A stretch of 40,990 nucleotides of DNA from a virus. Position numbers and translations under genes: made by a program. The notes beneath the pieces were generated by a model. It was not told the origin of the DNA, did not search any database, and worked only from the letters and a program-made list of their open reading frames with translations. Shown piece by piece: positions 5,501 through 28,511 of the stretch (its first letter is position 1; each line of letters begins with the position of its first letter). The stretch is taken from IMG/VR virus record IMGVR_UViG_3300030104_000068, positions 1 through 40,990 of that record; one strand, written 5' to 3'.

Positions 5501-5991
5501 AGTTTGGCTATTCTATGATTGTATGTATAACCAATAGGAACTCTTGGTTTCATAAGCTCATCGTCTACAAGTCTTGAAGGCATGTTTCCTCTAAGAACCA
5601 TGTTTTCTCTCATCTGACGTTCTCGAACACTCAGTTCTGTTCTTTCATTTGATTTTTCTTGATAATCTATTTGTGCTTGAACATATTCTGGATAATTAAC
5701 AGCATCATCATAAACGAAAACAGGTTTGTCATAAGTTTTTAAATCTTTACGAGCTGATTCAATTCCTGATTCTATAAATACGTCGTAAACGTCTTCTTTT
5801 TGTTCACGATTAAAACCGCCATAAATAAAAGCATCTTCGTATAGGTTAGGAATAGCCGAAAAAGTAAGTGCCTCTAATTGACTGTATCCTAAAACATCTC
5901 CGTAAGTTTTTTCAGGATTATTTTGTAAAGGAGTGCTAGAATACTCTTGTATTTTACTATCTTTTAATGCTTGGTATTCTTCTTTAGTCAT
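2521..5991 (-). CDS. Large putative internal virion or ejection protein (1156 aa)
   Basis: Large, mostly helical and charged protein without a signal peptide. An early segment (about residues 290-380: MGAVTRFLKPVAESVFNN, then LFQRLIGKAQ and GWIGILTYGGSQTMDIF) is more hydrophobic and amphipathic, as expected of a part that could contact membrane. I see no lysozyme, transglycosylase or protease motif. Size, lack of motifs and position among other large low-complexity proteins late in the structural cluster fit the ejected proteins of podoviruses (compare T7 gp15/gp16 by role only). The stop and the next start share TAATG, and its own start shares TAATG with the gene upstream. It contains the 32-base segment duplicated at 36-67. 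Function is inferred from context. Confidence 0.75.
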   Translation of the reverse strand: MTKEEYQALKDSKIQEYSSTPLQNNPEKTYGDVLGYSQLEALTFSAIPNLYEDAFIYGGFNREQKEDVYDVFIESGIESARKDLKTYDKPVFVYDDAVNYPEYVQAQIDYQEKSNERTELSVRERQMRENMVLRGNMPSRLVDDELMKPRVPIGYTYNHRIAKLGYNPNNVVSEEDFSFLNEMKRGLSFGTGMNPTPKDLNYAKENMYKGKYRGLLPGTFKYIDPKNISDGVAYFEEGKEPKIWDKGGFQPIDLAEVAISEGPVLGAELFAGFKGLKRFDDYYKKNPVDPETMGAVTRFLKPVAESVFNNMFLASGAAGTRLFQRLIGKAQNMHDRTPLEMVTEAGWIGILTYGGSQTMDIFMNGFPKMYRTITGKDVSAADLNAIQASVARGKASKEGEKVETLKAGTLEEVSILDIDTAIEELSKKIQVETGGGALPKYNPTLGQASKDNYMNDLEQILLTNMSDPTYKTFYDKLLAGNQDVIDKFYQGVFRNLQNDSTGSTLGATISDAFNNNPNAFVDEMESLITGFKTDIDNVKNIAAGKNTLIDQTADPKQSSLLYDRSKKNLNLIKDQIKERVNNDVVATYNTPIFKDITLGGQTYPKGTPLGEIPFSARGTRKNVKVLKNMADGNFPGSSTIGKKEAGAAYYEIFNDPIKVARLQKYTDGQITIGELNALKVDLNSYTSLLAASPKGASQGGIKTVEVLRNLQKSMEDDIYKRVRQFVGKKEALNVKNVFDAQKTAIELANSKTITTAANKDPEKLLTWMLDSNTPFAKQNTQVNNLMSFLKMGDSEIQIQGIQNELLDYIQNRFFDVADTTTTPFQKAVAYKQWLSNHKSTVEEILPKKDFGTIQNIKQFENNVLIPLKTLDETYNSLAAKYGSSDGFNIVSKILDSKGGAKAAGEFTSDIKYLESLTDPASPNYIASGLTKPQAKKVVGLFEQQLSDVTKKYIYQRTSNNGVFDYRLLDELMNEGFASSSVVGKDLSFEGIYKPLLGDGADDFIKNLNVLRDLGFRQDPANLGSGASSRVSASMFDPGTEYLRRFLIPPLTQFGRRATAAENLITQRNNAFVGQLLQKPDLLSSYANALKDRKALNQFIKVLYSYDITMYTDIANTLQRYNEKEKIPQEIQTFMEGYPSGYPSSLFNRLYNLGTTN

Positions 5992-7733
5992 TACGTGTTA
6001 AATTGAATTGTTTTTAATTTGTATCTCTCATCCATATTAGTGTTAGTAGGAGCTACAGTAGATGTTGGAACCTTTCCTTTTTGCATTTCTTTTATTCTTT
6101 TTTGTAATGAGATTAAATCAGGTTGATCCGAATTTCTTGTATAAATATCTTTAAATTTGTATTCATCATAATTAGTCCAATCAAAACCTTGGGGATTTGT
6201 AGGAGTAATTAATGCTGGATCTTGTTTTATACTGTAATATTCACGTAGAAAAGGTTGTTGCATTGGATCACTAGTATCATAAAAACCAGAACGTATTCTG
6301 TTCATACTCATTCCTGATTTAATAGAAGCATCTGTTTGATTTATCGTAGTGTCGAAAAAAGATAAAAAAACATCGTGCAATGTATCTATATCTTGAGTTG
6401 CTCCAAAACCGACCATTTTTAAATGATAAGCTAAATCTTTATCTGATAACGTTCTACCTGTTTGTCCATTAGCCGCAGCTGCAGCATAAGCTGATTGTAA
6501 TAGTAAAGCGGTTACTCGTGCTTTTTGGAAAGCTACGTCTTTTAATAAATCTTTTTGACCAAAACCAAAACCGTTTTCTAATCCAATCTTTTTTAAAAAA
6601 TCCTGTCCTAAATCTGCAGTATTCTCCCACTCTGTTAAAATTTTCTGCATTTCTGCTGGATCGTCATTTTCTATCGCAACCGATAACTTTTCATAAAGTT
6701 GTTTAGAAGCTGTTCCATTTCCTTGGGTTCCTAATGTTAAGTTTTTACCACTAGTTGATGGGTCTCCTCCATCTGAAAAAAAGTTATCGGTTAACCCTGA
6801 TCTTTTTCTAACCTCTTGTGTAAGATCTTTAAATTGTTCAAAATTTGCTCCAATGTTGTTGAGTATATTTAATCCACCTGCTACAGCTGTTAAAGGACTA
6901 AGTGATTTATCAGCTCTTGATTCAGATAGTAACTCCATTAAATCTTCACCTGAAACTGCAAAATTAATTAAAGCAGTATTTCGTTGAGCGAATTCATTGT
7001 TTTGAGCAAACATCTTTTCTAATCGTGGATCAGGACTGCCGCCTAATTCTCTTAAAGTCATATTTGTAGGAGCAATAATCCATTGTCTGCCTTGTTGAGA
7101 AGGATCATTTATATCGACATATCCATCTTTATTATCATTTTGAACATAATAAGTACCGTTTACATAATTAGCTGATCTTGAATCAGTGGGTTGTCCTTTT
7201 TGCAAAGCATTTACATCAGTCATAAGTAATTTCTGACCTGTATCAGTTAATAATTTATTTATTAAAGATTGTTTATTAGTTTGTGTAGTTAGTCTACTTT
7301 TTTCTTGTGCAGTTTTTAAAGATGCTGCACTTTTTGCATAATCATCGCCACCCCTTCCTAAAGATGCTGCTATTATTAAATCTAATATATCATCACCGCC
7401 AAAAGTGTCTTGTGGTTGATCAGGTCCATAAATTTTATAAGCTTCTAATTTAGCCGTGTCTAGTTGTGAGGGTTTATTTGGATCAGCGTTTATTGATTCT
7501 AAAAAAGAAGCGTCATTCATTAATTCAGGAGAGTCTTTAAAAAGACTTTTTAACCCACTAAGAGCAAAAGGTAATAAAGGAGCTATCTTTTCATCTAAAT
7601 CAGGTTCTACTGCACGTCTTGGTGCAGGGCGTCTAGCAACTGGAAACCTCATTTGGCTAGCAGGTAACTTAACATTCATTATGCCACCGCCTTGTTGCGG
7701 TCCTCCGAAAGTTGGGAAAGGTAACATAGCCAT
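5991..7733 (-). CDS. Putative internal virion protein (580 aa)
   Basis: No domain recognised. The N-terminus is Gly/Pro-rich (FGGPQQGGGIMN, then a basic RRPAPRRAVEPD), and the remainder is a predicted helical, soluble protein rich in Asn, Gln, Asp and Lys. The C-terminal end is DERYKLKTIQFNT. There is no signal peptide or membrane segment. It is coupled by TAATG overlaps to both neighbours and lies in a run of proteins whose composition (Gly/Gln/Ala-rich ends, long helices) is typical of the large virion proteins near the end of podovirus-like late operons. An ejection or tail-associated role is inference only. Confidence 0.75.
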   Translation of the reverse strand: MAMLPFPTFGGPQQGGGIMNVKLPASQMRFPVARRPAPRRAVEPDLDEKIAPLLPFALSGLKSLFKDSPELMNDASFLESINADPNKPSQLDTAKLEAYKIYGPDQPQDTFGGDDILDLIIAASLGRGGDDYAKSAASLKTAQEKSRLTTQTNKQSLINKLLTDTGQKLLMTDVNALQKGQPTDSRSANYVNGTYYVQNDNKDGYVDINDPSQQGRQWIIAPTNMTLRELGGSPDPRLEKMFAQNNEFAQRNTALINFAVSGEDLMELLSESRADKSLSPLTAVAGGLNILNNIGANFEQFKDLTQEVRKRSGLTDNFFSDGGDPSTSGKNLTLGTQGNGTASKQLYEKLSVAIENDDPAEMQKILTEWENTADLGQDFLKKIGLENGFGFGQKDLLKDVAFQKARVTALLLQSAYAAAAANGQTGRTLSDKDLAYHLKMVGFGATQDIDTLHDVFLSFFDTTINQTDASIKSGMSMNRIRSGFYDTSDPMQQPFLREYYSIKQDPALITPTNPQGFDWTNYDEYKFKDIYTRNSDQPDLISLQKRIKEMQKGKVPTSTVAPTNTNMDERYKLKTIQFNT

Positions 7734-8839
7734 TAGAAGTAGCTTCCAAAGTTACCGCTAAAACCACCATAAATTCCAGGAAGCCCACCACCTGTGGCAC
7801 TAGCTCCACCCCCTGTTTGACTATCAGGTCCAGGAGCCGTTGCTCCTAGACCGCCCATACCTGTGTAATTTGGTTGAGAATAAGCTCCTGGCTTAGGTGA
7901 GTTATAAGGCACACCGTAATTAGTAGCAGTTGGACTACCCTGCATGTAATTCTCAGGAGTATAAACACCTGCTTGAATTGCAGGATCACCGCCAGCATAA
8001 CCATAGCCACCCGCCATAGGTCCAAGGGAAGCTGTAAGTGCTCCAACGTTTTGTAATGTTTGCATAGGTAAATTGTATTGACCTACGAAGTTTTGGTAAT
8101 TTAAATCCATTAAAGATTGTTGTCTACCTCTGCCCATACCGCCCATACCCATCATAGACGCAATATCTTGTTGTTGTAATTGAGGTAATAAACTAGCCAT
8201 ACCGCCGTATTGTCCACCAAATCCTGCTAAAGCTCCTGCTCCTGCTAATTGTCTTTGTTGTTGTGATTCAAATGCTTGTTGTGATCTATTTTGTGCATCT
8301 TGATAACCTTGACTACGGATAGCTCCTATTTGTTCTGCTGCTCCTCGTGCAGTATCTGCTCCTAATTCGCTACGTCTTAATCTTGATCTAGCACCACCAA
8401 ATGCCCCACCGCTTACTGCGTCGTCTCGCATAGCCATGTCACCCATAGCTAATCCTTCTCTAACGTCTTTCATTGTTTGGTCAACTACTTGATCTTCGTA
8501 AGGGTTGTAATATCTTTTTGCACTATTAGGGTCATAACGTTTAAAACTATCTCTAGTTTTTTGCGCTGCTTGATTTAATAAATTAGCTTGTTGTCCTAAA
8601 TAAGGTCTATAACTACCAATAGCTTGGTCTGCCATTTGCATACCATAACGTTCTCTTGGGTCGAACCCCGCAACTCTAGGACCTGTGTAAGTATAAGGGC
8701 TTGAATTTTCTGAACCATAGTTTTCAAACTGTTGGGTTAAAAACTGAGTTGCGTAAGGAAAAATTCCTCCAGATAAAAGCTGCCCTATATACGGTGCGGG
8801 AGCCTGACTTGAATATTCTTGATCTTCTCGTTTAGCCAT
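7733..8839 (-). CDS. Gln/Gly/Ala-rich putative virion protein (368 aa)
   Basis: The segment RYYNPYEDQVVDQTMKDV (about residues 107-124 from the chosen start) resembles a YxNPYxxxVVDxT motif that I have seen in uncharacterised marine phage structural proteins. It is followed by an Ala/Gly-rich stretch (SGGAFGGARSRLRRSE) and a Gln-rich helix, then a Gly/Tyr/Pro-rich C-terminus ending GFSGNFGSYF. An upstream in-frame ATG at 8860 would add MIWGIDD, but it has no ribosome site. The ATG at 8839 follows GGGGAATAGACGAT and gives an 8-base overlap with the gene before, so I prefer it. It is coupled by TAATG to the next gene. A tail or internal virion role is inferred. Confidence 0.75.
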   Translation of the reverse strand: MAKREDQEYSSQAPAPYIGQLLSGGIFPYATQFLTQQFENYGSENSSPYTYTGPRVAGFDPRERYGMQMADQAIGSYRPYLGQQANLLNQAAQKTRDSFKRYDPNSAKRYYNPYEDQVVDQTMKDVREGLAMGDMAMRDDAVSGGAFGGARSRLRRSELGADTARGAAEQIGAIRSQGYQDAQNRSQQAFESQQQRQLAGAGALAGFGGQYGGMASLLPQLQQQDIASMMGMGGMGRGRQQSLMDLNYQNFVGQYNLPMQTLQNVGALTASLGPMAGGYGYAGGDPAIQAGVYTPENYMQGSPTATNYGVPYNSPKPGAYSQPNYTGMGGLGATAPGPDSQTGGGASATGGGLPGIYGGFSGNFGSYF

Positions 8840-10007
8840 ATCGTCTATTCCCCATATCATTAAATTTTTCTAATCTAGCAATCCCCATAGCATGACTACC
8901 GTCACCTGCTGCGTCTACTGCTGCTTTTGAGAGCATGTACTCTCCGTTACTTGCCATTACTGGTATTAAATCATCCTTAGGACCGCCAGGACCGTGCATA
9001 GCACCGCCGTTAGGCATTTGATTATCCATAAACATTTTTCTATTTAAAGCAGAACCTTCTTTAGCAAAAGTAATTTCAGAACCGCTTAAAGGAGTTATTT
9101 TATCAAACTGGCTTCTTCTTCGAGCCGCGTTTCCTGGAAGAGTGTTTGTACTTACTATAGAACCTTTTTGTTCTTTTGGTTTATTCATTAAATTTTTACC
9201 TGTAATAAGTCCTGCATCTATTAATGCTTTAAACATTTCAGGATTTTCCTCTGCAAAAGATTCAAGACCTAATAAAGGAGACATTTCAGTTATTTCTGCA
9301 GCATCCATAATAGGTGAATCCATAAGTCCAAGAAGAGATTCAAGACCCATAGAAGTTGGACCGCCTAAAGCCAAACTACCTATCCCCTCACTATAATCTA
9401 CATCTTCTCCTCTTATTCTTTGTAAAGCACGACGCATACTCATATTATTTTCTATTGCATTTCTTGTCATACCCTGATTAAAATTGCCTGCTAATTCCAT
9501 ACTTATAGCTCTTAATTCTTCATTAAGTTTTTCCATCTTGCTTTTACTTATTCTTCCACCTTCTAAAGTATCCATTATTTCTTGTCTTCTTTCAAAAAGG
9601 CTTTGTTTAGTATCTGCCATGCTTGATTCAGGGTTGCCGTATGGATATAACTTAGTAGCAGTAGGGGTATAAATTACTTCACCGCCGTTTTCTCTTTTTA
9701 AAGGACCGCCGAAAGCTAGTCCCATAATACCGAAATCTTCAGGATTTATTCCTGCTTCCATTAACATTTGTAATAATTGTTCTTCTTCTGAACTACCTTC
9801 TGTGTTAGGTTTAGTTACATCTTCGTAAGAAAAATCTGCAAACTCTTTAACGTCGCTTCCTTGTACAGGAACAAAATCACTTGCGTCTCCTGGATTCATG
9901 CTTGGAGATGTTCCGCTGCCTATAGGACTTTTAGGATCGTTAGCTATATTGGATTGGTATTTCATACCAACTAAAGAAGCTAATGCAGGGATAAGAAGAT
10001 TCCACAT
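8832..10007 (-). CDS. Putative virion protein with DDLIPVMASNGEYMLS motif (391 aa)
   Basis: The N-terminus (MWNLLIPALASLVG) could be a short membrane or hydrophobic helix. The body is Met/Glu/Gly-rich with AFGGPLKRENGGEV and SLALGGPTSMG segments. The C-terminus carries GGPKDDLIPVMASNGEYMLS followed by KAAVDAAGDGSHAMGI. A D-x-IP-x-ML/A-S-x-GE-hydrophobic motif of this kind recurs at the C-termini of many phage minor virion proteins, from general knowledge of phage annotation. It begins in a TAATG overlap with the 35-residue gene. A structural role is likely, but the exact one is unknown. Confidence 0.75.
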   Translation of the reverse strand: MWNLLIPALASLVGMKYQSNIANDPKSPIGSGTSPSMNPGDASDFVPVQGSDVKEFADFSYEDVTKPNTEGSSEEEQLLQMLMEAGINPEDFGIMGLAFGGPLKRENGGEVIYTPTATKLYPYGNPESSMADTKQSLFERRQEIMDTLEGGRISKSKMEKLNEELRAISMELAGNFNQGMTRNAIENNMSMRRALQRIRGEDVDYSEGIGSLALGGPTSMGLESLLGLMDSPIMDAAEITEMSPLLGLESFAEENPEMFKALIDAGLITGKNLMNKPKEQKGSIVSTNTLPGNAARRRSQFDKITPLSGSEITFAKEGSALNRKMFMDNQMPNGGAMHGPGGPKDDLIPVMASNGEYMLSKAAVDAAGDGSHAMGIARLEKFNDMGNRRYG

Positions 10008-10114
10008 TAGAACCTACTCCTAGTTTTAGTTTTCTTGCCTTTAGATGAGTATACGACGAAGTCGGAACGGCGTCCCTTCTTCTTTAGATATGCTTTTTTA
10101 TCAACTCCAGTCAT
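10007..10114 (-). CDS. Tiny basic protein (35 aa)
   Basis: Reads MTGVDKKAYLKKKGRRSD and ends KKTKTRSRF, with about one third Lys or Arg. The ATG at 10114 follows GGAGAAAAG, a good ribosome site, and the stop overlaps the next start as TAATG, both in favour of a real gene. It is the first gene after the curli-type module and resembles in character the tiny basic proteins at 16728-17014. DNA binding or packaging with DNA is possible but not shown. Confidence 0.6.
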   Translation of the reverse strand: MTGVDKKAYLKKKGRRSDFVVYSSKGKKTKTRSRF

Positions 10115-10187
10115 CTTTTCTCCAGCGTATTTAAACGTATTTGCGAGTTAAAGCCCACCCCGTAAGCTGCAGCACAAGCTGATATAT

Positions 10188-10200
10188 TGATTATATATCA
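10188..10200 (-). promoter_or_regulatory. Repeated 13-nt motif TGATATATAATCA (copy 1)
   Basis: On the minus strand this reads TGATATATAATCA and contains a perfect TATAAT. It overlaps the stop of the cyclase gene and lies 74 bases before the 35-residue gene that starts the last cluster. The same 13 bases occur at 25389-25401, and with one change at 29575-29587. A promoter -10 region or operator (TGAT and ATCA are inverted) is inferred. Confidence 0.45.
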
Positions 10201-11934
10201 AAACGTGTATATTTTTAAAGGTTTTTCTTTACCTTTTACTTTTATAGGTTTTAATCGTTTTAAGGAAATACCACAATATTTCTTAGTTTCTTCTCCAATA
10301 AGTATGTTTACACCTGCTTCTTTAGTAGCAGACTCTAGCCTAGCCGCCGTATTAACCGCATCCCCAATAGCCGAATAATCGAATCTAGTGTCACTGCCCA
10401 TGTTGCCTATCACAGCTTCTCCAGTATTAACCCCAACCCCGATAGCTATTCCAATGTTTGCTTTATTTATATTTTCTTGTATTTCTTTAGCACATTGAAC
10501 CGCTAGTTCTTCATGTTGTTCTAAATCCATAGGTGCATTAAAGATAGCCATCATTGCGTCACCAATGAATTTATCTACCATGCCTCCTCTTTTTTGTACA
10601 CACTCAACTTGAACAGTTAATGCTTTATTCATTATTTCAGTAACTTCTTCAGGAGGTAACGTTTCAGAAAGAGCTGTAAATCCTCTAACGTCTGTGAACA
10701 AGAAAGTACATCTTCTTTTTTCTCCACCTAGTTTTAATAAATCAGGGTCTTTTTGTAAACGTTTTACCTGTTTAGGATCTAAGTAATGTTCAAACTGTTT
10801 TTTAATCTGTTGTCTTAATTTATATTGTTCTCTAAACCTTAAATAAAAAGCTATAGCTCCTGTTATAAATTGTGAGACTAACGACCAAGTTATATCTATA
10901 AGGATTCCTGTAGTTATTGTGTAATAACCGTAGAAGCCCGTTAAAGCCATCGTAATTAAAGCTAGAGAAATACCCCAAGTTATCCCTAAATAGCTTATGA
11001 AAGCCCATACGAGGCTTACAGAAACTAAATATATAAGAAGTTCTAAAGCTAAAGAATAATCAGGTATGTAAGGACTATCTTGTATTAGGATAGATTCTGC
11101 AAGAGCCGTTTGTATTTTATGCGGCTCAACAAGTCCAATAGGCGTGGCTATCTGTGGCATAACCCCATTAGCTGTTACACCTACTATAACAAATTTACCG
11201 TTTACTTCCATTTCTTGTAAATCTGTTTGTTGTGTGTTAACCCATGAAATCCATTTACGACCTAAACTATCTGTTTTAACAGGCGGTATTCCACGTATCG
11301 CTATTTCCTGTATACCGTTTTCGTTAGTTTTGATAATATATGTTTTTATACCAAACAAAGCTTTATATATTTGTGTACCAAAACTAGGTATCCATTCGTT
11401 ATTAGGAGTTTTTACTAACAAAGGCATTCTTCTTACAAGTAAATCTACGTCGGTGGGAGCTATAGCTAATCCCTGCAGAACATCATCATATGATGTGTGA
11501 TTAGCTTTCACTCCCGAACTGTTAATACCTCCTGTGTTTTCACCTAAAACTACTGTTCCTGGACTAGCAGGATAAATGCCTTTACCGTCTTCAAACATTG
11601 CAAGAACTGCAGGAGCGTAGCCCAGTGACCTAGCAAAATCTTTATCTCCATCTAACCTATCCGCTTGCGGAAAACTAATTACCCAACCAACACCTATAGC
11701 ACCTTTACTTAATAATTCTATTTGGATATCAGCTAATCTTGTTCTAGGTAAAGGATATCCACCTTCACGTTCTATATCTTCTTCTGTAATGTTAAGTATT
11801 ACAAAATTACCACTGGGCTCTTGTTGTTTAATTAAACTATCAAAAGTTTTTAATTTAAGTATTTCTGTTGGCGTGCTTTGAAACACCAAAGGTAAACTAA
11901 GTAATATTAATATAGGTAATAAAAGTTTATTCAC
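10198..11934 (-). CDS. CHASE2-domain membrane adenylate cyclase (class III)
   Basis: Predicted to make cAMP from ATP in the cytoplasm in response to an extracytoplasmic signal. Order: an N-terminal helix (3-19), a CHASE2 sensory domain outside the membrane (about 25-285), three membrane helices (about 296-366), a short linker (YKLRQQIKKQFEHYLDP) and a catalytic domain (about 400-575). Every class III catalytic residue is visible: metal Asp415 (FTDVRGFT) and Asp459 (FIGDAMMAIF), substrate Lys455, Ser521 at the Asp/Thr purine-recognition position, and Asn528 and Arg532 (GDAVNTAARLES). The Lys plus Ser/Thr pair favours ATP over GTP. Start is GTG at 11934, overlapping the FecR-protein stop by 8 bases. 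FecR and CHASE2-cyclase genes often neighbour each other in bacteria, as I recall. Such an intact sensor enzyme in a phage late region is unusual. Confidence 0.95.
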   Translation of the reverse strand: MNKLLLPILILLSLPLVFQSTPTEILKLKTFDSLIKQQEPSGNFVILNITEEDIEREGGYPLPRTRLADIQIELLSKGAIGVGWVISFPQADRLDGDKDFARSLGYAPAVLAMFEDGKGIYPASPGTVVLGENTGGINSSGVKANHTSYDDVLQGLAIAPTDVDLLVRRMPLLVKTPNNEWIPSFGTQIYKALFGIKTYIIKTNENGIQEIAIRGIPPVKTDSLGRKWISWVNTQQTDLQEMEVNGKFVIVGVTANGVMPQIATPIGLVEPHKIQTALAESILIQDSPYIPDYSLALELLIYLVSVSLVWAFISYLGITWGISLALITMALTGFYGYYTITTGILIDITWSLVSQFITGAIAFYLRFREQYKLRQQIKKQFEHYLDPKQVKRLQKDPDLLKLGGEKRRCTFLFTDVRGFTALSETLPPEEVTEIMNKALTVQVECVQKRGGMVDKFIGDAMMAIFNAPMDLEQHEELAVQCAKEIQENINKANIGIAIGVGVNTGEAVIGNMGSDTRFDYSAIGDAVNTAARLESATKEAGVNILIGEETKKYCGISLKRLKPIKVKGKEKPLKIYTF

Positions 11935-13045
11935 TTTGCGTTATGGTTATATTAGAATCTCCACCACCATTTATTTTTACTACATTACTAACTCCATCTT
12001 GAATAATAATAACTGTGTATGCTCCACCACTGTCTAAGTCTAATCTAACTGAATCATTTACTTTTCGTCTAAGACTAATCACATTACCTGTAACTAAGGT
12101 GGTTATTTGTGTGTCTGGGTCTTGTCCTATTTTAGTTCCGCTAAGAGTTATGCTGCCTGCATCTGCTAAAACGTCTTCATCTTCCGAAATCGCTAATGAG
12201 TCTAATATATTTAATAGATCTTCAAGAAAATTTACATCTAAATAATTTATATCTAATTCTGTAAACTCTAATTCATCTTCAGCAAAAAAGTCTTCATCTA
12301 AATAGTCTATATCAAGATCATTAAAATCTAATATGTTAGCTTTTGTATTACTCGCTACTTCTTCTGTTTGAGTGATTTCTTCTTTAGGAGGCGTAACAAT
12401 TAACATGTTGTCTATAATGTCTAAAGTTAAATCTAATACAACAGGTTTACTAGGTTTGGATTCAAAAACACTTACTGTTGTGGCTTGATAAGGTTTATTA
12501 AGTAATACGCTACCCATAGCAGTAACCACTTCTATTTCCCCGCTAGACAACCCAAAAGAATCGGGGAGTAAAATAATAAGTGAACGTCCTAGCTCGTCAA
12601 CGGTAGCCGTGAAATCTGTCCCACGAATCGCTATGTTTGCTGTAGGTGTTTTTAAAGATATATTTTGTTTATCTATTTTGTTTAAATTACCCGTAATAAA
12701 TCGAGCTGTACCGAGTCCAAACGTAAGTGCCATTTTAGCTTTAGAAGGATCGGGATCATAGATATATTCATCTATTAAAAGTTGTGAGTGTTCAGTTAGT
12801 TTAACTGTAGAATCATCAAGAAAAGTTATAGCCATTCTACCGTTAGTAGTAATAGCTTCATCATTGCTTTGAATAGCAAACTTTAAAGTAGCGTCTAAAG
12901 GCTCATCTCTTACTATTTGCGCTGAACCATTTAGTTCAGATATATCCCCAATATCAGCAGCTTGTGCTTGTACCTTGGTCGTTTTGAATAATACAAACAG
13001 TAGAAGCAGCGTTCCCGCCAACCGATATAACTTTAAGCCAGTCAT
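11927..13045 (-). CDS. Secreted FecR-domain protein with curlin-like C-terminus
   Basis: Residues 1-28 are a signal peptide (LAGTLLLLFVLF core, cut after VQAQA). A FecR-type domain spans about 31-190, with the hallmark TPTANIAIRGTDF ending near residue 145. It is followed by an acidic linker with two related segments (LDIDYLDEDFF, LDINYLDVNFLED) and a C-terminal end (about 340-372) of curlin-like strands: VIIIQDGVSNVVKINGGG then DSNITITQ. In bacteria this periplasmic domain binds or senses ligands or partners; here it sits between the curlin-like gene and the CHASE2 cyclase, so it may link the secreted fibre to the sensor. That is inference. The start lies 92 bases inside the curlin-like gene, and the signal peptide requires it. 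No strong ribosome site is seen. Confidence 0.9.
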   Translation of the reverse strand: MTGLKLYRLAGTLLLLFVLFKTTKVQAQAADIGDISELNGSAQIVRDEPLDATLKFAIQSNDEAITTNGRMAITFLDDSTVKLTEHSQLLIDEYIYDPDPSKAKMALTFGLGTARFITGNLNKIDKQNISLKTPTANIAIRGTDFTATVDELGRSLIILLPDSFGLSSGEIEVVTAMGSVLLNKPYQATTVSVFESKPSKPVVLDLTLDIIDNMLIVTPPKEEITQTEEVASNTKANILDFNDLDIDYLDEDFFAEDELEFTELDINYLDVNFLEDLLNILDSLAISEDEDVLADAGSITLSGTKIGQDPDTQITTLVTGNVISLRRKVNDSVRLDLDSGGAYTVIIIQDGVSNVVKINGGGDSNITITQSE

Positions 13046-13685
13046 TATCTTGTGTACTCAGTTGTTGAATATTAAATGTTCTTTGTCCACCTGTGTGATC
13101 TAGCCAAAAATATCCGCCTGCTGAAGCTGTTACTCCTGTTCCAGTATAATTAACTGTATTATCAGAACCATCTATATCCATATAGTTAGTTGCACCATCA
13201 ATATTAATATTAGATACAACTGTGTTATTAGATCCTTGAATAATCCAATCTAAATCTAAAGTTCCTGCTAATGCAGTAGTACCTTGATTTAAAGTAAATG
13301 TATTACTTGATCCAGTAACAGCTATATTTTGATTAGAACTGTCAGCACCAAAGGTGTTACTTGGGTCAACTTGTATTGTAAAAGTATTGCTATTACCAGT
13401 GAATTCATAAAAACCAGTAAAGCTATCTGCCCATATATCACCAAGAAACTTGTTAGTGTTTCCAATCATATTAATATCAATAGTCATACTTGTACCATCA
13501 ATATCAAAAGCTGTAAGACTGCCTGCTGTAGATTGCAAGCCACCTATAATGTTAGAGATACCTAGTTGTTCTATATCTAAATTAAGTGTAGTACCGCTTT
13601 GGTCTAAATATATTTCGTTATCAGCCGCGAATGTTGGCAATGCACTCAGCATCACAATCAGGCTCATTAATTTTAAGTTCTTCAT
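12954..13685 (-). CDS. Secreted curlin-like repeat protein
   Basis: A clear signal peptide (MKNLKLMSLIVMLSALPTFA) precedes about 220 residues of beta-strand repeats. Recurrent units are G-(S/N)-x-NT-(F/V) followed by alternating hydrophobic residues: TGNSNTFTIQ, TGSSNTFTLNQ, QGSNNTVVSN, DGSDNTVNYTG, with opening DQSGTTLNLDIEQLGISN. CsgA and CsgB show similar Gln/Asn ladder repeats of about 20-22 residues, though these are more irregular. Two Cys near the end (STVCIIQNDQGTSTSC) could form a disulfide. It directly follows CsgG, with a 65-base overlap, so it is the obvious candidate substrate of the channel. Identity as an amyloid subunit is inferred from repeats and neighbours; an accessory curli factor is the alternative. 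Confidence 0.8.
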   Translation of the reverse strand: MKNLKLMSLIVMLSALPTFAADNEIYLDQSGTTLNLDIEQLGISNIIGGLQSTAGSLTAFDIDGTSMTIDINMIGNTNKFLGDIWADSFTGFYEFTGNSNTFTIQVDPSNTFGADSSNQNIAVTGSSNTFTLNQGTTALAGTLDLDWIIQGSNNTVVSNINIDGATNYMDIDGSDNTVNYTGTGVTASAGGYFWLDHTGGQRTFNIQQLSTQDNDWLKVISVGGNAASTVCIIQNDQGTSTSC

Positions 13686-14493
13686 GTTTCCAAAATCCTC
13701 TATCGTAACCGATAGTAATAAGTTCTAAAACTGCCCCTTCGATAGCTTTCATTAGGGCTATCGTCGTAGACTCGTTACGCGAGTTTCCTAACTCGACTTC
13801 TACAAGTTCGGTTCCCATTTCAATGAATCTGAAAATGTCTTCTGACTTACCATAACTGAATATGGTTTTTTGGCTTAATACTTCTATAAGTATTTCACCA
13901 GTTGCTACAGATACCATCCTCAAACTTACTGTAATGTTATCCTCTCTGTATTGAATACTAGTACCTATACCGAGATACCGTGCACCGATGCCACCAGTGG
14001 TTAAGTTACTATCATAGCTTATAACTGCACCTTCAAGCAACACTCCTGCAAATAACAAAGGAGCAAGCTGTTTCTTTTTTTCCTCATCTGTGGCAAATTG
14101 CTCTCTAGCTGATCTTATAAGCTGACGTTCTTTAGTTAAATTATCTAAACCAATTCTTTCTACAACTCTAAAAAATTCACCATTACTTGCGTGTTTAAGT
14201 GCTCTAATTAATAAAGTATGGGGTGCTTGTGTGACTGCTGTAGAAAATAAAGCAAACTCACTATTACTTTTTCTTTGTCCTGTTTGATCTGTAAATGATG
14301 TAGGATATACAGCAACTATGGGCTGAATCATAGGTTTATTTACTAAAGCTAATTCTTTAGAATGTAGTTCTTCTATTTTAACTATATCGTGAGCTTTAAA
14401 TCTTTGTTCATAAGTATCTTCAAACTGGTCAAAGATAGAACAACTAGAAAGTGAAGCTACCAATAGGAATCGTAATATGAGTGATTGTTCCAT
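13621..14493 (-). CDS. csgG: CsgG-family curli secretion channel lipoprotein
   Basis: CsgG forms a nonameric outer-membrane pore that exports unfolded curli subunits. The signal peptide ends in a lipobox, LSSC, with lipidated Cys18. The mature protein matches E. coli CsgG along its length: IVAVYPTSFTDQTGQRK, FSTAVTQAPHTLLIRALK, FFRVVERIGLDNLTKERQ, GVLLEGAVISYDSN, then TTGGIGARYLGIGTS, VSLRMVSVATGEIL, SQKTIFSY, FRFIEMGTELVEVELGNSRNE and IGYDRGFW. Its 290 residues are close to the 277 of E. coli CsgG. The stretch TGGIGARYLG is the constriction and barrel-entry region of the family. It starts with ATG inside the CsgF gene (50-base overlap) after GAGG. It is highly conserved and intact, so very probably functional. 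Whether it exports curlin-like protein or acts as an exit pore for the phage is open. Confidence 0.96.
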   Translation of the reverse strand: MEQSLILRFLLVASLSSCSIFDQFEDTYEQRFKAHDIVKIEELHSKELALVNKPMIQPIVAVYPTSFTDQTGQRKSNSEFALFSTAVTQAPHTLLIRALKHASNGEFFRVVERIGLDNLTKERQLIRSAREQFATDEEKKKQLAPLLFAGVLLEGAVISYDSNLTTGGIGARYLGIGTSIQYREDNITVSLRMVSVATGEILIEVLSQKTIFSYGKSEDIFRFIEMGTELVEVELGNSRNESTTIALMKAIEGAVLELITIGYDRGFWKHEELKINEPDCDAECIANIRG

Positions 14494-14944
14494 CAGCCTC
14501 GGTTATTTTAAGGGTTAAATAAGTTCCATCTGAACTATATTCTATCGTATTACCTTCTAAGGTTATAGTTCCGCTATCTTGTGGAGTTTCTCCAAATAAG
14601 TTAGCTATAAGTTGTCTTGATAATTCAGCGTAGACTCTTGACTCAAAGTTACGAATAAATCTTTGTACTGTAGAATTTTCTTTATCTCTTTCTGCTTCTT
14701 CTATAGCAGCTTTAAGTTCATCTTTAATTGTTTGTCGTCTATTAAACTCTTGGTTTTCAATCGTAAGATAATGACTAGATGTATTAATGCCACTAAAAGA
14801 GGGTGATTTAAATTTATGCGTTATTTGATCAGCCCACAGATCTTGTCCAAAAATCCCTACTAATAAAATAACTCCAATAGTTACGGCTATACTAACCGTA
14901 GGTGATTTTTGAGAATTATTTAGTTTTTTCTTTTTTGTTGTCAT
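14444..14944 (-). CDS. csgF: CsgF-like curli assembly factor
   Basis: CsgF is an outer-membrane accessory factor that inserts its N-terminus into the CsgG pore and helps nucleate curli at the cell surface. Here a basic N-terminus and hydrophobic core (KKKKLNN, VSIAVTIGVILLVGIFG) form a signal peptide, probably cut near DLWA. The mature start THKFKSPSFSGINTSSHYL matches the conserved F-x-NPxFGGN-x2-NG-x2-LL region that occupies the channel. A middle helix (FIRNFESRVYAELSRQLIANLF) and a C-terminal beta part (NTIEYSSDGTYLTLKITEADG, HITIPIG) match the family layout. It lies directly before CsgG, overlapping it by 50 bases, the usual pairing. The canonical Asn-rich signature is degenerate, so identity rests on pattern plus neighbour. 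Confidence 0.88.
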   Translation of the reverse strand: MTTKKKKLNNSQKSPTVSIAVTIGVILLVGIFGQDLWADQITHKFKSPSFSGINTSSHYLTIENQEFNRRQTIKDELKAAIEEAERDKENSTVQRFIRNFESRVYAELSRQLIANLFGETPQDSGTITLEGNTIEYSSDGTYLTLKITEADGTITHITIPIGSFTF

Positions 14945-15185
14945 TATCTAATGCCTCCTGTTCTTTAAGTTCTAATACTGTGTTTACTTTTTGTTGTAGT
15001 CTTATCATGTCTTGGTCTAATAAACGTAATTGATCGGTTAGGCGTATTATAGTTTTCTTCATTTCACCTACAGCAGGATCTATGACTTTAGTTACCGTTT
15101 GCCAAACAAAATAAACGAAATAACCTAACCCAACTACCATTACTACAGGAAATCCAAACTCGGAAACTAGTTGGACTATGTCCAT
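14916..15185 (-). CDS. Small single-helix coiled-coil membrane protein (89 aa)
   Basis: One N-terminal membrane helix (about 12-31, FGFPVVMVVGLGYFVYFVW) is followed by a coiled coil (LTDQLRLLDQDMIRLQQKV) and a charged Lys-rich end. It is a visible paralogue of the protein before it: (E)(F/L)G(F/L)PV and then NxVLEL or SSALNL align. The layout resembles small holin-like or BhlA/UviB-type phage proteins. It overlaps csgF by 29 bases and is joined to its paralogue by TAATG. It could act in lysis or assist the neighbouring curli-type channel; the sequence does not decide. Confidence 0.75.
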   Translation of the reverse strand: MDIVQLVSEFGFPVVMVVGLGYFVYFVWQTVTKVIDPAVGEMKKTIIRLTDQLRLLDQDMIRLQQKVNTVLELKEQEALDNDNKKEKTK

Positions 15186-15481
15186 TAATCTCTCCTAGCG
15201 TCTATCTTTCCATCTTCTACAAAATTTTCTGCTCTAGCTATTCTATTTAAATCAGGTTTCAAATTTAAAGCACTTGAAACACTGGTATCTATTCGTATAA
15301 TATCGTTGTTCATTATAGAGGCTCTAGTAATTAACATTTTAGTAATGCCTTCAACGGTTTTTATATCATTAACTAATTGCCCCATAAGCTGTTTCATGAT
15401 TAAAAAGATGAAGTAAGCCATAATAAGTCCACCTGCCACAGGTAAACCAAGTTCAGCTATTAATGTAAAACTCTGTTCCAT
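15185..15481 (-). CDS. Small single-helix coiled-coil membrane protein, paralogue (98 aa)
   Basis: N-terminal membrane helix (about 10-31: LGLPVAGGLIMAYFIFLIM) and a helical C-terminal part (IKTVEGITKMLITRASIMNNDIIRI cut here into blocks VEGITKMLIT and NNDIIRIDTS) ending DGKIDARRD. It aligns over most of its length with the 89-residue protein that follows, so the pair arose by duplication. The start lies 22 bases inside the previous gene, and the stop forms TAATG with the next start. A holin or antiholin pair is one reading; no signature proves it. Confidence 0.75.
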   Translation of the reverse strand: MEQSFTLIAELGLPVAGGLIMAYFIFLIMKQLMGQLVNDIKTVEGITKMLITRASIMNNDIIRIDTSVSSALNLKPDLNRIARAENFVEDGKIDARRD

Positions 15482-15657
15482 TCTTCTTCGTTATTATCTT
15501 TTTTAACTATAGCGGCTTCTCCTACTATAACTACTCCGAAATCTACTGCTTCTATATCAGCTTCTTCAAACGAATTAGCATAAATATAAGGTCCCTCATA
15601 AACTACAGTGCCTACTTTAAATTCAGTTAAATAGATCTTTTTACCATCTATAGCCAT
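15460..15657 (-). CDS. Small acidic hypothetical protein (65 aa)
   Basis: The frame extends further upstream, but only the ATG at 15657 avoids a long overlap with the preceding membrane protein, whose stop is at 15659. The protein (MAIDGKKIYLTEFKVGTVVY, then AVDFGVVIVGEAAIV) is mostly short beta strands with an acidic end. No membrane helix and no known family. Its role is unknown; its position between membrane proteins suggests membership in the same unit. Confidence 0.65.
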   Translation of the reverse strand: MAIDGKKIYLTEFKVGTVVYEGPYIYANSFEEADIEAVDFGVVIVGEAAIVKKDNNEEEWNRVLH

Positions 15658-15658
15658 A

Positions 15659-16051
15659 CTATTCTTTATTAGCCTCACCTTTAAAAGACTTACTCGATCC
15701 AGAAGTGCCTGCGTATAAACCAAACCAAGCAGCACCTGCTCCTACTACTATTGATATTAATCCTGACTGTTCAAAAGTAGGTGACTCTAATGCCATAAAC
15801 CAAAATGTTGTGTAATACAAAAGATACATATAAATACTAAGAAAAGCTCTAGGAAATAATCTCCAAGAATCTACAGCTTGTGCTAAATGAATTACTTTTT
15901 GCCAAGGATTTACATTAGTTGTATCTTCTAAAGTTCTTATTTTATCTTTAAGTTCGCCAATTTCTTGAATCATAGCCATGAACTTATTAAGATCCATCTC
16001 TACTTCATTTCTATCCATATCGCCGCCAAATCTTCCGCTTCCATCATTCAT
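15659..16051 (-). CDS. Two-helix membrane protein, holin candidate (130 aa)
   Basis: A charged helical N-terminal third (MDLNKFMAMIQEIGELKDKI, likely coiled coil) precedes two membrane helices at about 66-88 (FPRAFLSIYMYLLYYTTFWF) and 97-114 (GLISIVVGAGAAWFGLYAG), then a small basic tail. Size and layout fit a class II-type phage holin, and it is near the lysozyme. An upstream ATG at 16066 exists, but the ATG at 16051 forms a TAATG overlap with the nuclease stop, the habit of this genome. Holin function is inferred; a structural membrane role is possible. Confidence 0.75.
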   Translation of the reverse strand: MNDGSGRFGGDMDRNEVEMDLNKFMAMIQEIGELKDKIRTLEDTTNVNPWQKVIHLAQAVDSWRLFPRAFLSIYMYLLYYTTFWFMALESPTFEQSGLISIVVGAGAAWFGLYAGTSGSSKSFKGEANKE

Positions 16052-16434
16052 TAGTATGCACCCCAAATTTTAGTTTTAGTCCCGCCATCATATTCAACTG
16101 CGTGACCTTCATCAATTAATATTTGACAAATATCTTTGCCATCTTTTGTGTACGGAATACCGAGAATACGACCGTACTTGCCTTTGCCTAAAGATTTTAT
16201 TTTAAGTTTACCTTCACAAAGTTCTTTTAATCGAGCCTTTGCAGCAAGACCAAGTTTCTTTTCTTCTAGGTCACGTGTTCTTGATTCTGGGGTATCTATT
16301 CCAGAAAGCCTTACTCGTTGTTTATGTAGTTTTACATCAAAACCTAAATCAAGACAACAATCAAAAGTGTCTCCATCTACTATTCTTTCTAATGTAGCGT
16401 TGTATACAAACGCATCTGGTGCTTTTTTAGCCAT
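16051..16434 (-). CDS. Staphylococcal-nuclease-like (thermonuclease) protein
   Basis: A single SNase domain fills all 127 residues. The key residues are present: metal-site Asp20 (RIVDGDTF) and Asp47, catalytic Arg42 and Glu50 (QRVRLSGIDTPES), and Arg89 (KGKYGRILG). The family cuts DNA and RNA with Ca2+. There is no signal peptide, so it would act inside the cell or in the virion unless released at lysis. It follows three tiny basic proteins and precedes the holin candidate. Possible jobs are host nucleic acid breakdown or DNA processing; which one is not evident. The start directly follows the previous stop. Confidence 0.93.
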   Translation of the reverse strand: MAKKAPDAFVYNATLERIVDGDTFDCCLDLGFDVKLHKQRVRLSGIDTPESRTRDLEEKKLGLAAKARLKELCEGKLKIKSLGKGKYGRILGIPYTKDGKDICQILIDEGHAVEYDGGTKTKIWGAY

Positions 16435-16728
16435 TTAACATTTCCACCTTTTACGTGCTTGACGTAATCTTGAGTTAGGGTTTTTAGCTGCTTTAGGAAA
16501 TTTCTTCATTTGTCCTGCACTTCTAGCACAGTAAGATTTTCTCCTTTTTGCAGCCTTACTACCTTTTTTAACTTTTCCCGTAACTGCTGTTTTTAATTTA
16601 CTTCCTGGATTTTTTCTTCTATAAGCCTTAACGCCTTTCTTAGTCATGCCTGCGCCAGATTTAGTTTTGCGATAATTACCGCCTTTACCTGTAGTACGTC
16701 TTATAGACTTTTCTTTTTTACGAGGCAT
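16435..16728 (-). CDS. DUF5872-like basic protein (97 aa)
   Basis: Highly basic protein with Gly-Lys-Gly and Lys-Lys-Gly turns: RRTTGKGGNYRKTKSGAGMT, KGVKAYRRKNPGSKLKTAVT, KKGSKAAKRRKSYCARSAGQ and RLRQARKRWKC. I recognise this pattern from a domain of unknown function (DUF5872, from memory) shared by marine phages and large eukaryotic viruses. The conserved Cys (SYCARSAGQM and terminal KWKC-like end) could bind metal or form disulfides. DNA compaction or capsid DNA association is a reasonable but untested idea. It is joined by TAATG to the tiny basic gene upstream. Confidence 0.85.
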   Translation of the reverse strand: MPRKKEKSIRRTTGKGGNYRKTKSGAGMTKKGVKAYRRKNPGSKLKTAVTGKVKKGSKAAKRRKSYCARSAGQMKKFPKAAKNPNSRLRQARKRWKC

Positions 16729-16916
16729 TATTTTTTCTTTTTAGGTTTTTTTGCTGTTTTAGCAGAACGTATAAAAGCCTCCCTTGTAGGGGCACCTTTA
16801 GCTCCTTTTTTACGAGGCTTTCTGCCTTCTTTTTTCTTTTTATTTATGTAGTAATAAAGACCTTTTTTAGCGGTTCTGCCGTCTTTAGTTTTATGTGTTT
16901 TCTTTTTTGCTGGCAT
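16728..16916 (-). CDS. Lys-rich histone-tail-like small protein (62 aa)
   Basis: More than a third is Lys or Arg (MPAKKKTHKTKDGRTAKKG, KKKKEGRKPRKKGAKGAP, and a KKPKKKK end). The core GRTAKKGLYYYINKKKKEGR contains a short aromatic-basic helix. No fold is recognised. It begins and ends in TAATG overlaps with other basic-protein genes, showing that the three are translated as a set. Nucleic acid binding is likely from charge alone; the specific job is unknown. Confidence 0.8.
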   Translation of the reverse strand: MPAKKKTHKTKDGRTAKKGLYYYINKKKKEGRKPRKKGAKGAPTREAFIRSAKTAKKPKKKK

Positions 16917-17014
16917 TATTTCTTTGTCTTTTTCTTCATTTTCTTTTTATACGCTGTAGCTGCGGCTTTACCTTTTTTAGTATAAGCAAATTTTTTATTT
17001 CCTACTTTTGGCAT
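16916..17014 (-). CDS. Tiny basic protein (32 aa)
   Basis: Reads MPKVGNKKFAYTKKGKAAAT and ends in a Lys-rich run. The ATG at 17014 follows AAGGAGACTAAA, a strong ribosome site that lies over the end of the lysozyme gene, and the stop overlaps the next start as TAATG. These two signals and the shared composition with the two downstream genes support a real gene despite the length. Its role is unknown; DNA binding is probable from its charge. Confidence 0.75.
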   Translation of the reverse strand: MPKVGNKKFAYTKKGKAAATAYKKKMKKKTKK

Positions 17015-17015
17015 T

Positions 17016-17462
17016 TTAGTCTCCTTGTTTTAATACTCTATCTTTCAATCTTATAGCTCTTGGACCTACTTGTATAGCCCAACGACTATCTAACATTTCA
17101 ACTGCGGCTTTATCCCATTTATGTTCTTCCATAGCACTTAAAAACTTTTTAAATTTTAATAACCTAGTTATACCTAAGTTAAAACACATATTAGCCATAA
17201 CTCTTTGTAAATCTTCTGGTAAATCTTTCCACCATGTCATATTTCTATCTAAATCATTTATAACATTTTGTATGTCTTTTTCGAAACATTCTTTTATTCT
17301 TTTTTCTGAAACAGGAGTTCCTATGTCTTTCCCATGTTCTGGATCAGATTTTAATACTAAATGACCTATTCCAAAAGTAGGGTAATCTAAATGATCAAGA
17401 TATATTTTATTAATACATCCTTCGTCAAATGTTAATTCTTCTCTAAGTTTATCTATGTTCAT
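17016..17462 (-). CDS. T4-type lysozyme (endolysin, GH24)
   Basis: Muramidase that cuts peptidoglycan for host lysis. The catalytic triad of T4 lysozyme is in place with the same spacing: Glu14 (TFDEGC), Asp23 (YLDHLDYP) and Thr29 (PTFGIGHLV). The C-terminal helical lobe is complete (NMTWWKDLPEDLQRVMANMC, FNLGITRLLKFKKF). At 148 residues it is near the T4 enzyme (164). The frame runs further upstream, but the ATG at 17462 follows AGGAGAGTAAGT and removes the overlap with the gene before. There is no signal or anchor helix, so it needs a holin; candidates lie at 14916-16051 and 19708-20045. Confidence 0.95.
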   Translation of the reverse strand: MNIDKLREELTFDEGCINKIYLDHLDYPTFGIGHLVLKSDPEHGKDIGTPVSEKRIKECFEKDIQNVINDLDRNMTWWKDLPEDLQRVMANMCFNLGITRLLKFKKFLSAMEEHKWDKAAVEMLDSRWAIQVGPRAIRLKDRVLKQGD

Positions 17463-17464
17463 AC

Positions 17465-17806
17465 TTACTCTCCTAATATTATTGTTGTTGAACCACCTGT
17501 AGAAATTGAGACATTTCCTAATGCTGTAACCCCCTCTACTCCTTTTTCGGAACCTTGATAGATATCTACCCATTGTTCTCCTGTCCATAATTGTAGCTGT
17601 TGTGTGGATAAATTCCAAATAACATCGCCTTTATTGAATTGGTTTATGTTTCTTTGTGTTTCATTAACATTTATTGTCGCTCCAATATCTACCCGACCTA
17701 GACTTAATTCTAAAATCCTTACTAAACGATTAAACAACAAAGCTGCAGTAACTGAAGTAACAGGCGAAACAGCGTAAGGCAGTTTCGTTTCTAATAGTTT
17801 AGCCAT
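17465..17806 (-). CDS. Putative tail-associated protein (113 aa)
   Basis: The N-terminal half is helical (LLFNRLVRILELSLGRVDIG). The second half contains GDVIWNLSTQQLQLWTGEQW, an aromatic beta motif typical of small phage tail or fibre-associated proteins that bind sugar or form knobs. It starts in a TAATG overlap with the gp10-like gene and precedes the lysozyme. Function is not established. Confidence 0.75.
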   Translation of the reverse strand: MAKLLETKLPYAVSPVTSVTAALLFNRLVRILELSLGRVDIGATINVNETQRNINQFNKGDVIWNLSTQQLQLWTGEQWVDIYQGSEKGVEGVTALGNVSISTGGSTTIILGE

Positions 17807-19698
17807 TATCTTTTTCCATCAGGCTTTACATCCATACGCATAGCTCCTATTCTGAACGATGTACCTATAACGTTGGTGTTATCATCGTTAGATTGAATAC
17901 GTAAAACTGCTTGTCTTCCCCTTACTCTTGTATCTATTTTAGTAGTAACTGAAGTACAAGAACTTGTTACTGCGGTAGTTAATTCCTCTCCAGGAAAATT
18001 TCTTCTTTTTAAAACTATGTCTACTTTTTGACCATCACTGCCTAAACTAGCGTCTCCTGTGAATTTAATGTCGGGGATTATTCTACTTATGGACTGGAAA
18101 TCTTCCCCTGCAGGATCAAGATCAAAATCACTAGACTCTATAAACACATTAGTCATCGCGGTGCCATCGTTATCGTCTCCTGTTTCATGATTATATAAAT
18201 AACCTACATCGTTTGTAGATGAGGTAGCTTTAGGATCAGGAAAAACTCCTTCATCTAACCAACAAGTTCTAGAAAGTTCTCCAATCATCCAAACATTTTC
18301 TTCGTAATTATAAGTAACATATTTATCAATAACGTTGTTTGTTCCTGAACAATAAAACCAACCTACCTCATCGAAAGCTTTATTTAGAAAAGCAAATATT
18401 TGATAACTTTGTGTTTGGTTTATATCAGTAAAAACATACTCATCAACGGTGCAAGGCATTTGTTGTATTTGACCTGTGTAAGAATAAAAACCTTTTTTAT
18501 CCATCCAAAACACTCCTTTAGGGGTGTTTATCATAGCATTAGGTCCAACTAACCCAACTCCTTCATTAACTAAATTAACTGCAAAAGTAAATGGTTGTCC
18601 TACAAAAGACATTGAATATAATGAAGTATCTGTCCAAACTAAAGTTTCTTGTCTTGCTCTAAGAGCTCCTATAATTGAAGATCCTGCTGAAAGTCTAAAA
18701 GATCCTGCCGTGTTAGTCGGTAAAGGTTCCCATTGTTCTGCATTTTCTTGGTCACTCCAAGCTATAAACATCGGATCAACTACGTTTGTTCTAGTCACTC
18801 CTGAAGTACTTATTGGATCTGCTCCAAAACAAATAACATGTCTATCTATATCAGAAACTAAAACTTGTAAGGCTACGGTAGGAGCTAAATTAGAATCAGT
18901 AAGTGCAGAAAGAGCCACTGCTCTATTAGAAACTCCTCCCCCTACGTCGTGATAATAAACACCTGCTCCGCGAACATTCATAATTAAATCTTCACCGAAG
19001 TTATCATGTGACCAAATACGTAATTGATTATTAGCTCCTAAAGCAGAAACACTGCCCCAAGTTCCTGAACCCCAATAATCAGAACCCCACCCTGTGGACG
19101 GCACGTAAACATCTAAACCCACATTTATTTGATATGCAGCATCTGCACTAGACCCGCCATTACCTGAATCGCTAGAATTAGCAGTAACTGTGTTATCACT
19201 AGTATCTTTAGCTGTAAAAGTAAAAGTATTTGCGGTGGGTACTGAAGTTACTTGATATTCTTGATTTAATACAGCAGCCGTAACAAGCCCGCCTAAACTA
19301 ACTGCTCCGCTTATTGTAACAAAGTCATTAAGAACAACTTGATGATTACTGTCAGTAGCTGTTATAGTTGAACTGCCGTCAGTAGCAGCAAAAGTAATTC
19401 CGTCAGTTGTCGTTGCTCGAATAGGTGTTACATCGTAATAAACTTGTCCTTCTACCGCATAGTATTTCCAAGTTGTACCTAAACCGATTAATCTAGTTCC
19501 ATCGTTATCTGTCCAAGCATGCATTGCTCGTCCTGTAGATTTAAAAGTAGTTCCAGTAGCTTTAGTCCAACCCCCTATTTTTTCAGGCAAACCTTTACGA
19601 AAACGCACTAAATTAGAATCAAACCAACCTCCTTCATTAGCGTAAGCTGTCGATTCTTTGTTTATTCCTGGTCTAAAAACAAATTTTTGTAAAGGCAC
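17806..19698 (-). CDS. P22 gp10-like tail hub or DNA-stabilisation protein (630 aa)
   Basis: The opening FVFRPGINKESTAYANEGG, then WFDSNLVRFRKGLPEKIGGW, is the hallmark of proteins annotated as packaged-DNA stabilisation protein gp10 in P22-like and many marine podoviruses. It forms part of the short tail that closes the portal channel. The remainder is beta-rich (propeller-like repeats with WTDTSLYSMSFVG, GVFWMDKKGFYSYTGQ) and ends RIGAMRMDVKPDGKR. The start is GTG at 19698, preceded by AGGAGAGAACA; no ATG is available nearby. It ends in a TAATG overlap. Assignment is from remembered family pattern; confidence in a tail role is high, and in exact equivalence to gp10 moderate. Confidence 0.85.
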   Translation of the reverse strand: MPLQKFVFRPGINKESTAYANEGGWFDSNLVRFRKGLPEKIGGWTKATGTTFKSTGRAMHAWTDNDGTRLIGLGTTWKYYAVEGQVYYDVTPIRATTTDGITFAATDGSSTITATDSNHQVVLNDFVTISGAVSLGGLVTAAVLNQEYQVTSVPTANTFTFTAKDTSDNTVTANSSDSGNGGSSADAAYQINVGLDVYVPSTGWGSDYWGSGTWGSVSALGANNQLRIWSHDNFGEDLIMNVRGAGVYYHDVGGGVSNRAVALSALTDSNLAPTVALQVLVSDIDRHVICFGADPISTSGVTRTNVVDPMFIAWSDQENAEQWEPLPTNTAGSFRLSAGSSIIGALRARQETLVWTDTSLYSMSFVGQPFTFAVNLVNEGVGLVGPNAMINTPKGVFWMDKKGFYSYTGQIQQMPCTVDEYVFTDINQTQSYQIFAFLNKAFDEVGWFYCSGTNNVIDKYVTYNYEENVWMIGELSRTCWLDEGVFPDPKATSSTNDVGYLYNHETGDDNDGTAMTNVFIESSDFDLDPAGEDFQSISRIIPDIKFTGDASLGSDGQKVDIVLKRRNFPGEELTTAVTSSCTSVTTKIDTRVRGRQAVLRIQSNDDNTNVIGTSFRIGAMRMDVKPDGKR

Positions 19699-19707
19699 TG
19701 TTCTCTC

Positions 19708-19890
19708 CTAGATAAAGGCAGCAAAAACTATAGAACCTAGTATAAATGGATAAACCCCCCATAACAACATTTCTAATCTTTTAAATTTAGCAGAACCCTC
19801 ATCGAGACGTTTTTCAATATATTCGTATCGAATAGCGCATTCTCTTTCATGTGCGTTAAGTTCTGCTAAAGCATCCTTTACCGTGACCAT
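19708..19890 (-). CDS. Small protein with C-terminal membrane helix (60 aa)
   Basis: An N-terminal coiled coil (LAELNAHERECAIRYEYIEK) is followed by one C-terminal membrane helix at about 40-58 (LEMLLWGVYPFILGSIVFAA). The layout is like XhlA-type haemolysin or holin-helper proteins of phages. It is joined by TAATG to the 51-residue membrane protein before it. Together they may be a holin pair, though other small membrane proteins nearby compete for that role. Confidence 0.75.
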   Translation of the reverse strand: MVTVKDALAELNAHERECAIRYEYIEKRLDEGSAKFKRLEMLLWGVYPFILGSIVFAAFI

Positions 19891-20290: not shown

Positions 20291-20368
20291 TTAATTTACC
20301 TCCTCAGGTTTAGTTTGAGTTTGCACACCTCAACCCTTAGGTCAGCTGTGATTGTTACACTTATTAAA

Positions 20369-20641: not shown

Positions 20642-20642
20642 T

Positions 20643-25373: not shown

Positions 25374-25388
25374 TGTTATTCTCCAATT

Positions 25389-25401: not shown

Positions 25402-25415
25402 TATTCTTTTAAAAA

Positions 25416-26111: not shown

Positions 26112-26117
26112 AGGCTA

Positions 26118-28509: not shown

Positions 28510-28511
28510 TA

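Follow-up and report, generated by a model that had tools for sequence, protein, structure and literature searches.

Why would an ocean phage carry, among its late genes, what looks like a curli-type system for exporting surface fibres together with a sensor of its own? The question is raised by the window analysed here, an entire IMG/VR record of 40,990 bases, in which five open reading frames on the minus strand run head to tail across positions 10198-14944 with overlaps of 50, 65, 92 and 8 nt. Read along that strand, they encode a CsgF-like outer-membrane curli assembly factor of 166 aa (14444..14944; Pfam CsgF 3e-14, PHROG 35372 1.9e-43), the CsgG lipoprotein export pore of 290 aa (13621..14493; Pfam 2.8e-47), a secreted curlin-like repeat protein of 243 aa that is the presumed export substrate (12954..13685), a secreted FecR-domain protein of 372 aa (11927..13045; Pfam FecR 4.5e-10) and a CHASE2 transmembrane class III adenylate cyclase of 578 aa (10198..11934; Pfam CHASE2 3e-23, Guanylate_cyc 1.5e-20). 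Two small one-helix membrane proteins are encoded just before them on the same strand: tm1, which also has a coiled coil (14916..15185, 89 aa; PHROG 18771 4.2e-26), and its paralogue tm2 (15185..15481, 98 aa; PHROG 18771 7.3e-22). An earlier sequence-only reading had proposed the same five overlapping genes, and their coordinates and identities are borne out, as is the description of a complete, functional-looking export module that lies in a phage late region and comes with its own substrate and a putative FecR/CHASE2 sensor; all predicted families pass their Pfam models except the curlin-like protein, which is discussed below. PHROGs families, all of unknown function, exist for CsgF, CsgG, FecR and the cyclase, and relatives of these proteins are therefore already present in phage collections. 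Promoter scans gave results no better than chance, and terminator scans found no convincing terminator ending the module.

The phage and its published relatives

The core structural genes and their order match those of HTVC023P and HTVC027P and identify the window as a fragment of an HTVC023P-type podophage. The terminase is 51-57%, the portal 48-54% and the capsid 65-73% identical to those of HTVC023P-type phages, and the three genes are syntenic with HTVC023P, HTVC027P and 023Pt_psg01 (48-73% identity overall). Pelagibacter is the host of HTVC023P-type phages, and from this lineage the host of the window phage is presumably Pelagibacter/SAR11. A companion record of 57.9 kb matches the window at 99% identity across positions 9677-20719 and 24691-40988, including the curli module; ORFs in the rest of that record read as DNA polymerase A, an SF2 helicase and thymidylate synthase. 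The sequence-only reading had raised the concern that phage and bacterial pieces might have been joined. Both a chimera and an assembly artefact are ruled out by these two records, which differ in tail and ejection genes yet share the module, and by the unanimous gene order among related loci. Compared with an otherwise 99%-identical record, the tail protein of the window is 59% identical and the ejection-type genes 25-77%, the divergent stretches being 5991-10007 (against record L002) and 20643-25373 (against record L224). Such sharp divergence is a sign of modular exchange. Elsewhere in the window, positions 16435-16728 on the minus strand encode a very basic protein of 97 aa (PHROG 10346) that is unusually conserved, with 78-90% identity to pelagiphage homologues, compared to 26-73% for the phage core genes.

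A phage curli module with substrate and sensor is real and has been known since 2022, so the earlier impression that this combination was new to phages was wrong. The module was reported from myovirus pelagiphages and from nine genomes of the HTVC023P type, its order being HK (sometimes two), CsgF, CsgG, CsgA/B, FecR, in many cases a second curlin, and cyclase (PMC9599517), and csgGF had been described in pelagimyophages in 2020 (PMC7029224). The window shares gene set, order and phage lineage (terminase, portal, capsid) with this T8SS/curli module. It differs in having no optional second curlin gene, in small one-helix proteins without a kinase domain at the place named HK, and in a FecR protein that does not resemble an iron regulator. 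In Pelagibacter phage HTVC008M and Methylophilales phage Melnitz each of the seven genes has a homologue, and the gene order is unchanged. Annotations in the HTVC008M record cover CsgF, CsgG, a CsgB-like protein and the cyclase; those in the Melnitz record cover the full set. The two phages are, however, large T4-like myophages with 31-50% protein identity to the window (tblastn), and they have a second curlin gene, which in HTVC008M includes a PA14 domain.

Conservation, selection and bacterial counterparts

At least 581 relatives of CsgG are found in IMG/VR. We surveyed 116 distinct marine viral loci that are close relatives of the window CsgG, and the following counts describe that group rather than all phage CsgG. 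Every gene is found wherever the contig left room for it: tm in 72/72 loci, csgF in 104/104, curlin in 103/103, fecR in 94/94 and the cyclase in 50/50. The five-gene order noted in the window is unanimous where there is room, and its upstream extension consists of one or two genes per locus for small one-helix proteins of 80-116 aa. All seven genes are under purifying selection, with median dN/dS of 0.13-0.25 (Nei-Gojobori, gene overlaps left uncorrected, median dS near 1); omega is 0.19 for CsgF, 0.14 for CsgG, 0.13 for both curlin and FecR, and 0.25 for the cyclase. Purifying selection, intact ORFs and conserved cyclase residues rule out a decaying remnant, in agreement with the sequence-only reading.

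Aligning phage CsgG against bacterial genome contigs returned mostly phage contigs placed in bacterial bins, and bacterial curli loci were for this reason fetched via CsgF. Contigs with the phage curli module (L087, L088, L089, L092, L093) sit in bins named Maricaulis, Marinimicrobia, Flavobacteriaceae and Pelagibacter, so caution is called for with bacterial curli genes described from bins of this kind. With curli operons in E. coli and Alphaproteobacteria the phage module shares CsgF, CsgG, a curlin-type substrate and the adjoining positions of csgF and csgG, but it has no CsgE. Neither FecR nor a CHASE2 cyclase lies within ~9 kb of the curli genes at 15 sampled alphaproteobacterial loci, and the joining of FecR/CHASE2 to curli is therefore unseen outside phages in this small sample.

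Pore, presumed substrate and putative sensor proteins

CsgG matches the E. coli CsgG structures (5.5e-44), and its lipobox, LSSC, can be read from the sequence. Its pore loop, RKSNSEFALFST, is one residue longer than that of E. coli and keeps Phe56, but Tyr51 and Asn55 (E. coli CsgG numbering) are not conserved, as is also the case in alphaproteobacterial CsgG. The claim that CsgG and the cyclase keep all key residues thus holds for the catalytic set of the cyclase and fails for these two pore residues. Residues D415, K455, D459 and R532 of the cyclase are kept in 52/52 sequences and D525 and N528 in 51/52; together they are the two metal-binding Asp, the substrate-binding Lys and Asp, and the transition-state Asn and Arg. 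The CsgE periplasmic gate is found in none of six companion virus records, and it is reported to be absent from alphaproteobacterial and pelagiphage modules (PMC9599517). On two contigs in bacterial bins (L091, L092) the CsgG loop is about six residues shorter (RKQVGLSTAV), and the curlin partners there are larger, at 370-387 aa.

The curlin-like protein alone remains below a match to the Pfam curlin model (E=0.36). Its Melnitz homologue, 31% identical to it, passes the same model (8.6e-06), and the window protein has seven repeats of the form hydrophobic-x-G-x-x-N-x-hydrophobic, where shuffling predicts 0.47. An AlphaFold model built from 21 relatives, with rows from named phage records left out, shows stacked beta strands (pLDDT 75, pTM 0.71). 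Three viral structures match this model at E<0.001, two of them named "Curlin associated", among these the best match (E 4e-6, TM 0.70/0.76). A fold search of the PDB with the model gave no match below 0.001, and PDB sequence-profile searches with the curlin and FecR proteins returned nothing useful. On the combined evidence of homologues, repeats and predicted fold we regard the protein as a substrate of the curlin type. In HTVC008M the second curlin protein, annotated "hypothetical protein", combines a PA14 domain with curlin repeats (L082 6583-7908, equal to HTVC008M 10638-11963), a domain composition that suggests a surface-exposed adhesive fibre with a binding head.

The FecR domain is the only Pfam domain found in the 372-aa protein, at the N-terminus of which a signal peptide can be read. 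There is no cytoplasmic anti-sigma domain in this protein and no FecI-type sigma factor or TonB/FecA receptor in the module; judged by its domains and neighbours, the FecR protein is without the hallmarks of an iron-citrate regulator. Its C-terminus, described earlier as curlin-like, is suggestive: Y343, Q349, I368 and Q370 are invariant out to HTVC008M and Melnitz, but as a true curlin repeat the tail is not supported statistically (shuffle test 0.08-0.09; hhalign probability 5%). The structure model of the protein has a pLDDT of 33, too low to be informative. The closest alphaproteobacterial FecR relatives are mostly found in long open frames of up to thousands of residues; among them are examples with RTX, Calx-beta or weak LapA domains, some adhesin-like. 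A CHASE2 protein lies within ~10 kb in 4 of 20 such FecR loci, with a cyclase (two loci), HD or SpoIIE as output, and a GAF-type cyclase occurs at two further loci, one domain-scanned and the other of the same length and score. FecR and CHASE2 cyclase genes also cluster in Campylobacterota (PMC9239204). In these bacterial pairs, as in the phages, a secreted FecR protein stands beside a membrane sensor of the CHASE2 type, and in some pairs the output is a cyclase; the bacterial partners differ in being mostly large, some adhesin-like, and not curli, and in outputs that range over cyclase, HD and SpoIIE. In line with PMC9239204, FecR and CHASE2 look like an exchangeable envelope sensor pair. One SAR11-order genome (G495, locus L227) encodes a CHASE2-SpoIIE protein and, ~1.3 kb away, a FecR-domain protein of 898 aa; the two may be a cellular version of the sensor pair that lacks the cyclase.

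The gene or genes before csgF were called "histidine kinase" in PMC9599517, and judging by position the small one-helix genes are probably the same ones. No kinase domain (HisKA/HATPase) is found in 12 members of this family. tm1 has a weak match to the phage holin family PHROG 4898 (1.2e-3), and the best other hint for the family is YvrJ (0.04). Homologues of tm1 and tm2 hold the same place and order in HTVC008M and Melnitz.

Function of the module and its alternatives

We consider a phage-carried type VIII (curli) system for exporting surface fibres, equipped with an envelope sensor, to be the best reading of the module, with a probability of roughly two in three. CsgG and CsgF would form an outer-membrane pore during late infection, and the pore would export the phage's own curlin-like protein, so that the infected cell would come to bear a surface fibre assembled from it. 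Export or fibre state would be monitored at the envelope by a pair of proteins, secreted FecR and the CHASE2 cyclase of the inner membrane, with cAMP synthesis as the output. The most likely benefit would be an altered surface of the infected cell, through which either clumping brings new hosts to the virions or competing phages are blocked; the sequence cannot tell which of the two applies. Fibre export is favoured by the protein families and their integrity, the unanimous order, the selection on all seven genes, the retention of the curlin substrate with the pore in every locus with room, the PA14 domain of HTVC008M and the expression of the module seen in published metatranscriptomes (PMC9599517). 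The neighbourhoods of alphaproteobacterial FecR relatives and the Campylobacterota clusters argue for the sensor pair. The missing CsgE gate and the altered pore-loop residues speak against fibre export, and no clumping was seen in cultures infected by Melnitz, a carrier of the module (PMC9004378), which counts against fibres.

Sensor output is harder to place on the host side. One of 197 SAR11-order genomes has CsgF and one of 147 has a class III cyclase, and the two matches come from the same bin, where they lie on a phage contig; a class I cyclase is found in none of the 147. Domains that bind cNMP occur in 11 of the 147 genomes, always in open frames of 372-1002 aa, which are longer than CRP-type proteins; the one frame that was domain-scanned is an acyltransferase fusion. 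No stand-alone CRP-like cAMP receptor is found among the 147 genomes, and none of the six companion phage records has a cNMP-binding domain. If the host is SAR11, a cAMP signal would thus have no known reader, which is a point against the favoured reading. This gap also weighs on the idea, raised in the sequence-only reading, that the phage reprograms host cAMP, which becomes doubtful for a SAR11 host. In its strong form, with the cyclase and FecR as the point of the module and phage-made cAMP rewiring host transcription, we rate it the least probable of the readings: the catalytic residues are conserved and the cyclase is present wherever there is room, but its constraint is the loosest of the module, and the phage host is itself deduced from lineage.

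A different account makes CsgG/CsgF a lysis-timing device that perforates the outer membrane or depolarizes the envelope, with the tm proteins as holins and the curlin secondary. Upstream of csgF there are always one or two one-helix proteins weakly similar to holins, a lysozyme is encoded 2 kb upstream of the module in the window, and a lysis role was proposed on position for Melnitz (PMC9004378). Among 45 related loci with enough upstream sequence, however, only 6 have a lysozyme homologue there, a count that would miss unrelated endolysins, and the HTVC008M and Melnitz modules adjoin replication and baseplate/tail genes. A pure pore would also leave unexplained why curlin and FecR are as constrained as the pore. 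The lysis role suggested earlier is thus weakly supported, and we regard it as unlikely. Still less probable is a role in uptake, in which large nutrients or iron chelates would enter through the pore and FecR would sense iron, an idea stated in PMC7029224 and PMC9599517. With no CsgE gate found, the pore may indeed stay open; against this, FecR is missing an anti-sigma domain and is most closely related to large proteins of the secreted type, neither a sigma factor nor a TonB receptor is encoded in the module, and no locus with room has lost curlin or csgF. The odds are equally long for a closed phage circuit, in which the curlin-like tail of FecR would join or sense the fibre, the cyclase would turn this into cAMP, and cAMP would act on a phage or host reader, possibly the tm proteins, to time lysis in a host with no known cAMP system.

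Compared to the published description of the module, our analysis adds the lack of a kinase at the "HK" place, a FecR protein that is not of the iron type, 15 curli loci without FecR or cyclase, and the cAMP gap in SAR11. The presumed host seems to be without cAMP machinery, which makes the reader of the signal the missing part. The question of function is narrowed, as adjacency to lysis genes is not conserved and FecR/CHASE2 resembles envelope sensing beside bacterial adhesin-like proteins. Our results confirm the spread among ocean phages of a complete module for fibre export that brings its own putative sensor.
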